Shown piece after piece: positions 14,630 through 46,070 of a stretch of 64,000 nt of DNA. The stretch comes from Modestobacter italicus. GTDB taxonomy: Bacteria > Actinomycetota > Actinomycetes > Mycobacteriales > Geodermatophilaceae. Numbering within the stretch: position 1 is the stretch's first letter; each line of letters starts with the position of its first letter. Both the position numbers and the translations under genes were made by a program. Location of the stretch: the NCBI RefSeq assembly GCF_000306785.1, contig NC_017955.1, forward strand, positions 4,464,001 through 4,528,000, read 5' to 3'. The notes under the pieces are model-generated. The model saw nothing but the letters and a program-made list of their open reading frames with translations. It was not told where the DNA came from and searched no databases.

Positions 14630-14685
14630 GGACCCCGCTGCCCCCCGCCACTCGCACGCTCGCGGCGGGACCCTGCAGCGGGGCC
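14630..14685. repeat. Structured intergenic repeat, copy A
   Basis: A 56-bp element 5 bp after the ACT gene stop and 2 bp before the convergent ligA stop. The outer stem is GGACCCCGCTG (14630-14640) with CAGCGGGGCC (14676-14685). The inner arms are CCCGCC and GGCGGG, around a core like CTCGCACGCTCGCGG, with a conserved GGGACCCTGCA. It is related to the copies at 42675 and 46015. Here it probably serves as a bidirectional terminator. Confidence 0.85.
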
Positions 14686-14687
14686 GA

Positions 14688-16856
14688 TCAGCCTTCGGCT
14701 GACCCGTCGCCGATGGTGGCCACCTCGCGGGCGGCCTCCGGGCCCTGCTCCAGCAGCACCGCGAAGCCGTCGTCGTCCAGGATCGGCGCCTTGACCTGCA
14801 CGGCCTTGTCGTACTTGCTGCCGGGGTCAGCACCGACGACGACGAAGCCGGTCTTCTTGGAGACCGAGCCGGTCACCTTGCCGCCGCGCTCCTGGATGGC
14901 GGCGATCGCGGAGTCGCGGCTGTGGTCGCGGAGCGACCCGGTGACGACGACGGTGATCCCGGTCAGCGGGCCCGGGCCCGCCTCCTCGCCCTCGTCGGCC
15001 ATCCGGACGCCGGCCTGGCGCCACTTCTCGACCACGTCGCGGTGCCAGTCGACGGCGAACCAGTCCCGGACCGCGGTGGCGATGGTCGGACCGACGCCCT
15101 CGGCCGCGGCGAGCTCCTCCTCGCCCGCCTCCTGCAGCCGGTCCATCGAGCGGAACTCCCGGGCCAGCGCCTGCGCGGCGGTGGGGCCGACGTGCCGGAT
15201 GGACAGCGCGACCAGCACGCGCCAGAGCGGGACGTCCTTGCGGGTCTGCAGGTTGGCGAGCAGCTTCTGCCCGTTGGCCGACAGGGTGCCGTCCTTCTTG
15301 GTGAAGAAGTCGGTGCGGCGCAGGGCGTCCTCGTCGAGGAAGAAGACGTCGCCCTCGTCGGTGAGCAGGTGGCTCTCCAGCAGTGCGATGGCCGCCTCGT
15401 AGCCGAGCACCTCGATGTCGAAGGCGCCCCGGCCGGCGACGTGGAACACCCGCTCCCGGAGCTGGGCGGGGCAGGACCGGGCGTTCGGGCAGCGGATGTC
15501 GGCGTCGCCCTCCTTCTCGGGGCGGAGCTCGGTGCCGCACTCGGGGCAGTGCGTGGGGAAGACGAACTCCCGCTCGGAGCCGTCGCGGGCGGCGACGACC
15601 GGACCGAGGACCTCGGGGATGACGTCGCCGGCCTTGCGGATGACGACGGTGTCGCCGATCAGCACGCCCTTGCGCTTGACCTCGCTGGCGTTGTGCAGCG
15701 TGGCGAGCTGGACGGTGGAGCCGGCGACCTTGACCGGCTCCATGTAGGCGAACGGGGTGACCCGACCGGTGCGGCCGACGTTGACGCGGATGTCGTGCAG
15801 CTTGGTCGTCGCCTCCTCCGGCGGGTACTTGAAGGCGATGGCCCAGCGGGGGGCGCGGCTGGTGGACCCGAGCCGGCGCTGCAGGGAGACCTGGTCGATC
15901 TTGACCACGACGCCGTCGATCTCGTGCTCGACCGAGTGCCGCTGCTCGCGGTAGCGCTCGATGTAGGCCCACACGCCCTCGAGGTCGTCGACCACCTCGT
16001 AGCGGGAGCTGGTGGGCAGGCCCCAGGACCGCAGCTGCTCGTAGGCGGCGGACTGGGTGGCCGGCTCGAAGCCGCGCCGGGCGCCGATGCCGTGGACCAC
16101 CATCGTCAGCGGGCGCTTGGCGGTCTCGCGCGCGTCCTTCTGCCGCAGCGACCCGGCGGCGGCGTTGCGCGGGTTGGCGAACGGGGCCTTGCCGGCCTCG
16201 ACCAGGCCGGCGTTGACCTCGGCGAAGGCGGCGACCGGGAAGTAGACCTCGCCGCGCACCTCGAGGAAGTCGGGGACGTCGTCACCGCTCAGCTGCTGCG
16301 GGACCGAGGCCATGGTGCGGACGTTGGCGGTGACGTCCTCCCCCGTCGTCCCGTCGCCGCGGGTGGCGGCGCCGGTGAGCCGACCGCGCTCGTAGACCAG
16401 GTCGATGGCCAGGCCGTCGACCTTGAGCTCGCAGAGCCAGCTGGTGCCGGCCCCGGCGTCACGGACCGCGCGGTCGGCCCAGGCCGACAGCTCGTCGGAG
16501 GAGAAGACGTTGTCCAGGCTCTGCATCCGCTCCGGGTGGGTGACCGGGGCGAAGGTGGCGCCGAAGCCGCCGTTGACCTTCTGGCTCGGCGACTCGGGGG
16601 TGACCAGCGCGGGGTGGGCGGCCTCGAGCGCCTTGAGCTCGCCCATCAGCTCGTCGTACTGACCGTCGCTGACCAGCGGGGCGTCCTGCACGTAGTAGGC
16701 GAACGCGTAGCCGTCGAGCTCCTCGGACAGGTCACGGTGCCGGGTGCGCGCGTCGTCGGGGACCTGGGTCAGGTCCTCCCGGTCGACCGCAGCTCCCACC
16801 GACGGCTGGTCGACGCCGTCGACGGCCTCCTGCTCCACCTCTGCCTCGGTGCTCAC
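14688..16856 (-). CDS. ligA: NAD-dependent DNA ligase
   Basis: Essential replicative ligase of 722 residues, slightly longer than E. coli LigA. The adenylation domain carries the nucleotide-accepting Lys in [12 protein letters not shown] (about residue 145). The OB fold is followed by a four-Cys zinc finger (CPECGTEL, then [11 protein letters not shown]), helix-hairpin-helix repeats and a C-terminal BRCT domain ([16 protein letters not shown]). GTG 16856 was chosen because TACCGT lies 7 nt upstream and the extension to 17186 is antisense-free shadow within the HNH gene. The start shares GTGA with the stop of the broken HNH gene. An extra, slightly acidic N-terminal stretch of about 30 residues precedes the conserved domain. 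Confidence 0.97.
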
Positions 16857-44637: not shown

Positions 44638-46010
44638 TGAGCGCGTTGACCGACATGCTGGCCGACTGGATGCCCGGGCAGCGGTGGTTCGGCGGCAAGG
44701 GCCGCGAGTGGGCGTCGGTGAGCGAGGACGGCTTCTTCCTCGACCAGTCCGACCCGGCGCTGTCCGTGCACCGGGTCCGGGTGAGCTACACCGACGGGCA
44801 CACCGAGACCTACCTGGTGCCGCTGTCCTGGCGCAGCGCCCCGGCCGAGGACCTCGCCTCGGCGTTCGTCGGCGCCGTCCCGGGGTCGCAGGGTGAGAAC
44901 TACGCCTACGACGCGATGCGCGACCGCGACGCGACCGTGCCGTGGCTGACCCACCTGGTGGCCGCCTCGACCGTCGGCCCGATGCACTTCCACCCCGCCG
45001 GGGTCGCCTACATCCCCGAGGGCCTGCCCGGCGACGTGATCTCCACCGAGCAGAGCAACACCTCGCTGGTCTACGGCGAGACGGCGATCCTGAAGCTGTT
45101 CCGCCGGCTGGAGCCGGGGCTCAACCCGGACGTGGAGATCCTCGACGCGCTGCGCCGCACCGAGAACAAGCACATCGCCCCGCTGCTCGGGCACATCGAG
45201 ATCGACGACACCGACCCCGCCCAGCCGCCGGCCACCGTCGCGATGCTGCAGGCCTTCGTCCCCAACGCCAGCGACGGCTGGCGGCTGGCCACCTCCAGCG
45301 TCCGCGACCTCTACGCCGAGGGCGACCTGCACGCCGACGAGGTGGGCGGCGACTTCGCCGGGGAGAGCGAGCGGCTGGGCGAGGCCACCGCCTCCGTCCA
45401 CGCCGACCTCGCCCGGGTGCTGCCGACCGAGCCGGCCGACCGCGACTGGTACGCCGCGGTCGCCGCCCAGATGACCGAGCGGCTGGAGGCGGCGCTGGCG
45501 GTCGTCCCCGACCTCGCCGAGCACGGCGACGCACTCCGGGCGCTGTACGCCGCGGTCGCCGAGACCGACGAGCCGGTGGTCCGCCAGCGGGTGCACGGCG
45601 ACCTGCACCTGGGCCAGGTGCTGCGGACCACCAGCGGCTGGATCGTGCTCGACTTCGAGGGCGAGCCGGCCCGGCCGCTGGCCGCCCGGCGGGAGACCGA
45701 CACCCCGCTGCGCGACGTCGCCGGCATGCTCCGGTCCTTCGACTACGCCGCCCGGCACATGCTGGTGGAGCAACCCGACGACCCGCAGCGCGCCTACCGC
45801 GCGCAGGAGTGGGCCGAGCGGAACCGCACCGCGTTCTGCGCGGGGTACTCCGCGGCGGCCCCGGACATCACACTGTCGAGCGAATCCGCGCTGCTGCGCG
45901 CGTTCGAGGCCGACAAGGCGGTGTACGAGTGCGTGTACGAGGCGCGCAACCGGCCGCACTGGCTCATGATCCCGCTCAGCTCCCTGTCCCGGTTGACCTC
46001 CGGCGACTGA
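44637..46010 (+). CDS. mak: Maltokinase
   Basis: Phosphorylates maltose to maltose 1-phosphate, the donor used by GlgE. The 457 residues show the aminoglycoside-phosphotransferase-like fold: N-terminal cap with [12 protein letters not shown], the ATP Lys in [13 protein letters not shown], the catalytic loop [12 protein letters not shown] and the metal-binding [16 protein letters not shown] 44637 shares one base with the treS stop, so the two enzymes are made in coupled fashion. In several actinobacteria TreS and maltokinase are associated or fused; here they are separate. Confidence 0.96.
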
Positions 46011-46014
46011 AGAA

Positions 46015-46070
46015 GGACCCCGGTGCCCCCCACCGCTCGCGAGCTCGCGGCGGGACCCTGCACCGGGGCC
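46015..46070. repeat. Structured intergenic repeat, copy C (between mak and glgB)
   Basis: 56-bp member of the family at 14630 and 42675. The outer stem is GGACCCCGGTG (46015-46025) with CACCGGGGCC (46061-46070), an inner palindrome CGCGAGCTCGCG and the conserved GGGACCCTGCA. It begins 5 bp after the mak stop and ends 38 bp before glgB. Confidence 0.85.

Follow-up and report, generated by a model that had tools for sequence, protein, structure and literature searches.

The window analysed here, a stretch of 64,000 nucleotides, contains three copies of an intergenic hairpin, and two of them lie inside a glgE-treS-mak-glgB run. The locus thus raises the question of whether the hairpin is a site that tunes the enzyme ratio of this run, as the initial annotation proposed, or one member of a dispersed family. 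Covariation at a few sites does not prove an RNA regulator, and the best known bacterial palindromic repeats, the REPs, are tied to RAYT enzymes, none of which was found in the host family of this element. Its many sites in about 100 genomes offer a natural experiment on whether selection or template switching keeps the structure of a mobile hairpin. The same system bears on how an element finds stop codons and on exchange in place between species with flanks more than 90% identical. The data favour, as the probable explanation, a family-wide short mobile hairpin of REP-like build that is tied to stop codons and constrained on its bottom strand.

Copies in the window and covariation of the element

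A covariance model built from nine copies (R1) has exactly three matches in the window at E <= 0.01, all on the plus strand. The first (14627..14685; 83.3 bits) has the outer arm GCTG/CAGC, lies between convergent genes and starts 2 nt past a TAG that ends at 14624. The second (42673..42731; 70.6 bits; CTCG/CGAG) is located between glgE and treS, 1 nt behind the glgE stop at 42671 and before the treS start at 42772. The third (46012..46070; 85.0 bits; GGTG/CACC) begins 1 nt past a maltokinase-like stop at 46010, with the next gene of the glg run downstream. The glgE-like gene upstream of copy 2 (40665..42671, plus strand) is an open frame to 42671 for which NCBIfam gave no match at 1e-20, and its name is that of the initial annotation. 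Between copies 2 and 3, treS (42772..44637, plus strand) scored above the cut-off of NCBIfam TIGR02456. The maltokinase-like gene upstream of copy 3 (44637..46010, plus strand) matched TIGR02457 with an E of 1.8e-80, under the cut-off of that model.

The hairpins had been described with bounds that start 2-3 nt further to the right than those of the model, and the compensating outer pairs read as claimed. Of the core said to be shared, CTCGC..GCTCGCGG is present in all three copies, and GGGACCCTGCA is exact in two, copy 2 having CGGTCCCTGCG instead. All three copies do follow plus-strand stops, at gaps of 2, 1 and 1 nt by the model bounds. Taken by itself, copy 2 folds no better than its shuffles (z of -0.96 for the top and -0.08 for the bottom strand), and short core words by themselves occur in the window at a frequency near chance. 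The window also holds a tandem repeat at 36399-36723 (three copies, 107-nt spacing, 94-95% identity to the first) and, at 46225-46506, four 69-nt direct repeats (65-81% identity to a reference copy) close to the start of the gene that follows copy 3, where by the look of the sequence they encode a Lys/Ala-rich repeat.

The element is about 59 nt long and has an outer and an inner helix, variable in sequence yet complementary, together with a loop, spacers and feet that are near-invariant. We aligned 96 copies from the genome of the window, the best-scoring of at least 145 (sources are given for 88); as the model used for the alignment derives from nine copies of this set, the result is biased towards its structure. 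The feet are GAAGGACC at one end and GGCC at the other, and in this alignment the first foot is mostly GAAG and sometimes CAAG, GGAG, AAAG or TGAG. The outer helix, with about five varying pairs, is followed by an asymmetric C-rich spacer and by the inner helix, with about four varying pairs, which closes a loop of about 10 nt (TCGC-NN-GCTC). Pairing is kept in 92.6% of the cells, and changes on both sides occur in 13 of 19 pairs. The covariation score over the 96 copies is 0.314, against 0.092 after shuffling and 0.025-0.087 for slid controls, which rule out chance as its source. Outer arms and inner cores are freely combined among copies. One compensation in place was detected at own position 396525, where the counterpart in G007, the closest relative examined, differs as T-A versus C-G at columns 28/40. 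The conserved covarying hairpin proposed from three sites is thus corroborated over 96 copies. A genome-wide look for copies without covariation, or lying at random inside genes, found instead that the copies examined covary and sit at stops.

The covariation could also be mainly mutational, if template switching within the hairpin copied one arm onto the other without structural selection, a reading that we consider rather doubtful. Template-switch mutation at quasi-palindromes in E. coli and arm homogenising in yeast have been reported (PMC7202029, PMC8604942). One such event can perfect both arms, so that part of the covariation may arise at the DNA level. Cases that resemble it were seen at G007 278103-278164, where the left spacer is the exact complement of the right one, in contrast to own 267523-267581, and at L210 3350-3411, a similarly perfected palindrome. 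Since the process is known and similar cases occur, covariation alone is no proof of selection at the RNA level. However, conservation of the spacers, the bulge or wobble sites and the loop, with their imperfections, holds in almost all 96 copies. Pure arm correction should erase imperfect sites, and their retention is therefore the better evidence of a kept structure.

Host range and placement behind stop codons

The genome of the window, one contig of 5,575,517 bases, holds at least 145 R1 matches at E <= 1; these were found among just 150 candidates scored, and the true number is therefore probably higher. All copy numbers given here are lower bounds, with 150, 141, 49 or 18 candidates scored per genome depending on the search. 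In a set of 39 genomes (141 candidates scored per genome), matches numbered 8-146 in each of the 23 genomes of the same genus and zero in the 16 genomes from other families. With stricter filters (49 scored per genome), matches were found in 101 of 112 genomes and 9 of 12 genera of the Geodermatophilaceae, the match-free ones including the nearly complete G039 and G067. An order-wide search (18 scored per genome) gave matches in 53 of 298 genomes; 50 of the 53 belong to the family. Outside it, G164, G173 and G248 yielded 1-2 matches each, and these five isolated matches, in two other families, are L313 and L316 (G164:C17), L314 (G173), and L315 and L317 (G248). Those of G164 and G173 are close to the end of a contig, those of G248 are on short contigs, and all may represent contamination or transfer. 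Of 80 TreS loci, 12 come from Blastococcus, Geodermatophilus and unclassified Geodermatophilaceae, and 10 of these had matches at E < 0.01; the other 68 loci had none.

Rfam gave no match for the window at the gathering threshold, nor for five loci at E <= 1, and we recognised no report of such a repeat in Geodermatophilaceae or its genera in the open-licence literature. In the match-free G067, 160 kb (L301-L308) contain the 14-mer GGGGTTGTCGGCGG and its neighbours up to 20 times, while no 14-mer occurs more than 5 times in an equal length of the window's genome. A relic pattern was noted at ten places in the 160 kb of G067 scanned, none with a hairpin by eye.

The copies are closely associated with the ends of genes. 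A clearly coding same-strand frame ends in the range searched for 82 of the 96 own copies (14 are without a scored gene); the distance from stop to element is exactly 1 nt in 47 of these 82 and within -3..+5 in 75. TGA-N directly precedes the foot in 50 of the 96. Genes were also called without annotation by a simple, crude codon-usage finder, and by these calls the element starts at -3..+2 nt relative to the end of a same-strand gene in 19 of 23 own copies (424 kb) and 21 of 26 copies of G007 (400 kb), compared with 1.1% and 1.3% of random intergenic points; 3 of the 23 and 0 of the 26 were called inside genes. These sets comprise 49 of 54 matches, one of them weak (E 0.019). Of the five left out, three duplicate others on the opposite strand, one is weak (E 0.15) and the last, the known copy 4807973, is truncated by the end of the stretch.

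The neighbour layout of the 49 copies is convergent in 17, tandem in 25 and other in 7 (called inside a gene, antisense or divergent). The convergent share of 40% is not clearly enriched over that among all gene ends of these stretches, roughly 32-34%. Among tandem copies, 13 of 24 end at most 50 nt before the next called start, so that a promoter would have little space. Among the genes upstream are moeZ, ahcY, sucD and glmS, and groEL for a 28-nt short form. Targeting of a replication strand was considered and rejected: outside 2.4-3.0 Mb, 82 of 136 copies are directed away from position 0, taking that position as the origin, a share that we regard as not exceeding that of genes in general.

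Strand of the fold

The bottom strand is more stable than the top strand in 96 of 96 copies folded as RNA and in 91 of 96 folded as DNA. On the top strand, columns 24/44 and 27/41 carry A.C in 71 and 29 of the 96 copies and never G.T. Over 186 rows from four sets, among them a few that are weak, partial or on the opposite strand, A.C outnumbers G.T by 188 to 4 in the inner helix; the outer helix of the same rows shows 22 versus 12, which is not significant (p 0.12). When both A.C sites were replaced by G-C as a control, the bottom strand was still better in 95 of 96 copies, indicating that its gain is partly due to conserved unpaired bases. In the majority of the displayed bottom-strand folds, what looks like an A bulge in the foot belongs to a G.U pair. 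From these predicted folds we take the bottom strand to be the likely selected form, as RNA or as single-stranded DNA, and the top-strand hairpin assumed by the initial annotation becomes doubtful.

The strand preference also bears on the idea that the copies are repeated terminators, or hairpins at mRNA 3' ends, of the upstream sense gene without a U-tract. A precedent for such a family is TRIT, which the 2011 RNIE work of Gardner reportedly presents as the repeated terminator of M. tuberculosis. TRIT would resemble the present element in being a hairpin model applied behind actinobacterial genes. The tight placement behind stops with constant orientation, the covarying GC-rich hairpin and the persistence behind moeZ and ahcY across genera would agree with such a role. 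Nevertheless, no T-run follows the top-strand hairpin (T occupies positions +2..+6 in 30, 22, 7, 4 and 6 of the 96 copies), unit ends are not clearly enriched, many tandem copies stand close before the next start, and it is the opposite strand that folds better. We therefore judge a terminator family unlikely, and a strong sense-strand terminator in particular fits poorly.

Turnover of copies and comparison with known repeats

The mobile hairpin that we favour agrees with the differences between related genomes. Automatic comparison found 4 of 236 distinct matches inside another copy (among them a few that are weak, partial or on the opposite strand), and two more nested copies, L134:16162 and L283:6990, were recognised by eye. 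One element has the copy at L134:604-660 in its loop, and its counterpart L135:580-636, which shares the downstream sequence, is unfilled; L129:16196-16252 interrupts an element that is continuous in L131 and L132. Between glgE and treS, the window's genome and L127 carry the element in forward orientation and L128, L130, L132 and L134 in reverse; none was detected there in L129, L131, L133, L135 and L136. No clear target duplication was seen at the empty and filled sites read by eye.

The comparison with G007 revealed 11 sites that carry a copy in the same orientation in both genomes, against a chance expectation of about two (rough arithmetic, 23 x 26 over 317 junctions). These pairs were picked by reading; one 28-nt mini copy was left out and three flipped pairs were counted apart, one of which is almost unchanged in sequence (0.95). 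Upstream identity over 200 bases is 0.91-0.97 at all 11 shared sites. Five of the sites keep the same element (identity 0.89-0.95), and six, with flanks 92-97% identical, have an exchanged one (0.71-0.78, no closer than random own pairs, which average 0.84). The sites of copies 2 and 3 of the window hold a different element in G007 (identity 0.75 and 0.77), and the counterpart of the copy 1 site is, by eye, seemingly a degenerate reversed remnant. In G117, from another genus, the moeZ and ahcY sites, recognised by eye from the last residues of the genes, carry related elements whose stem differences are compensated. The moeZ and ahcY sites thus carry the element in two genera, which shows that some sites persist for long, and this persistence fits a function at least as well as mobility.

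More tentatively, the element may spread by a route that uses neither a HUH transposase nor a reverse transcriptase and lands at stops and at its own older copies, the bottom-strand hairpin being the mobile or functional form, and self-replacement in place may keep selected housekeeping genes tagged while the sequence of the tag turns over. In the favoured reading itself, the form recognised would be the hairpin of the bottom strand, as RNA or single-stranded DNA, and new copies would land at stop codons or in the loops of old copies. A gene would then keep an element while the identity of the element changes, and resident copies, being directly behind the stop and breaking no gene, might be tolerated or kept. 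The hairpin may also act on one strand, for example on transcripts that enter the gene from downstream.

Candidate movers gave little. The Y1 transposase (PF01797) was found in 0 of 112 family genomes and in 5 of 14 controls, indicating that the element is no classical REP. Y2 (PF04986) was present in one of the 112, a genome without element matches, and in 0 of 14 controls, which makes it the weaker test. An origin from RAYT/IS200 or IS91 was rejected on these counts. Reverse transcriptase occurs in 49 of the 112 genomes and was rejected as a general mover, as none is found in the element-rich G004, G014, G040, G041, G042 and G044. A plasmid or phage source was also set aside, one 101-nt query giving no match in either collection. 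A classical REP, or an IS200/IS605- or IS91-type element moved by a Y1 or Y2 HUH transposase, is accordingly very improbable and already largely refuted by the enzyme counts, despite the GAAG foot, the imperfect palindrome, the more than 100 copies and their mostly extragenic position.

The likeness to REP/BIME lies in the high copy number, the extragenic position, the imperfect palindromes and the conserved 5' foot. The REP foot is GTAG or GTGG in most of the rows available from a published table (PMC2817692), versus mostly GAAG here. The present element differs from REP/BIME in its 59 nt, two helices, conserved loop of about 10 nt, tie to stop codons and lack of a Y1 match in the 112 genomes. 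MITEs (Correia, RUP, MIRU) are similarly short, non-coding, dispersed and mobile, and MIRU also sits at gene ends. However, no terminal inverted repeat with target duplication was recognised here, and the helices covary rather than share a single fixed sequence. The integron attC likewise forms a hairpin immediately after a stop codon, and it is the bottom strand that folds; its core motif is RYYYAAC / GTTRRRY. In contrast, the present consensus has no GTT/AAC core, no attC core sites were seen by eye in the 96-copy alignment, and the copies stand behind scattered housekeeping genes and not in cassette arrays.

That the hairpin serves the glgE-treS-mak-glgB run specifically, as an attenuator or processing site, is suggested by the two copies inside it but is the least credible of the readings, since the same element stands behind the unrelated genes named above, its presence and orientation vary at the glg sites among relatives, the closest relative examined has a different element at both, and the one window copy outside the run, copy 1, lies between convergent genes.

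Several variants of the element were also observed. Some own copies (e.g. L012, L070, L098), as well as L131 and L132, have by eye a 16-nt 3' tail like GTTCCAGCACGTCACC that follows the hairpin without a gap; a tail of this kind is present in both species at the exchanged site own 220320 and in G007 only at own 375640. Head-to-tail arrays of the inner part of the element, with a spacing of about 50 nt, are found at L130:19251-19453 and L061:1399-1559. The short form behind groEL (G000:C1:4863899-4863926, L273:15899-15926) is a mini copy that consists of the outer helix only, and a short form stands at the same place in G007.
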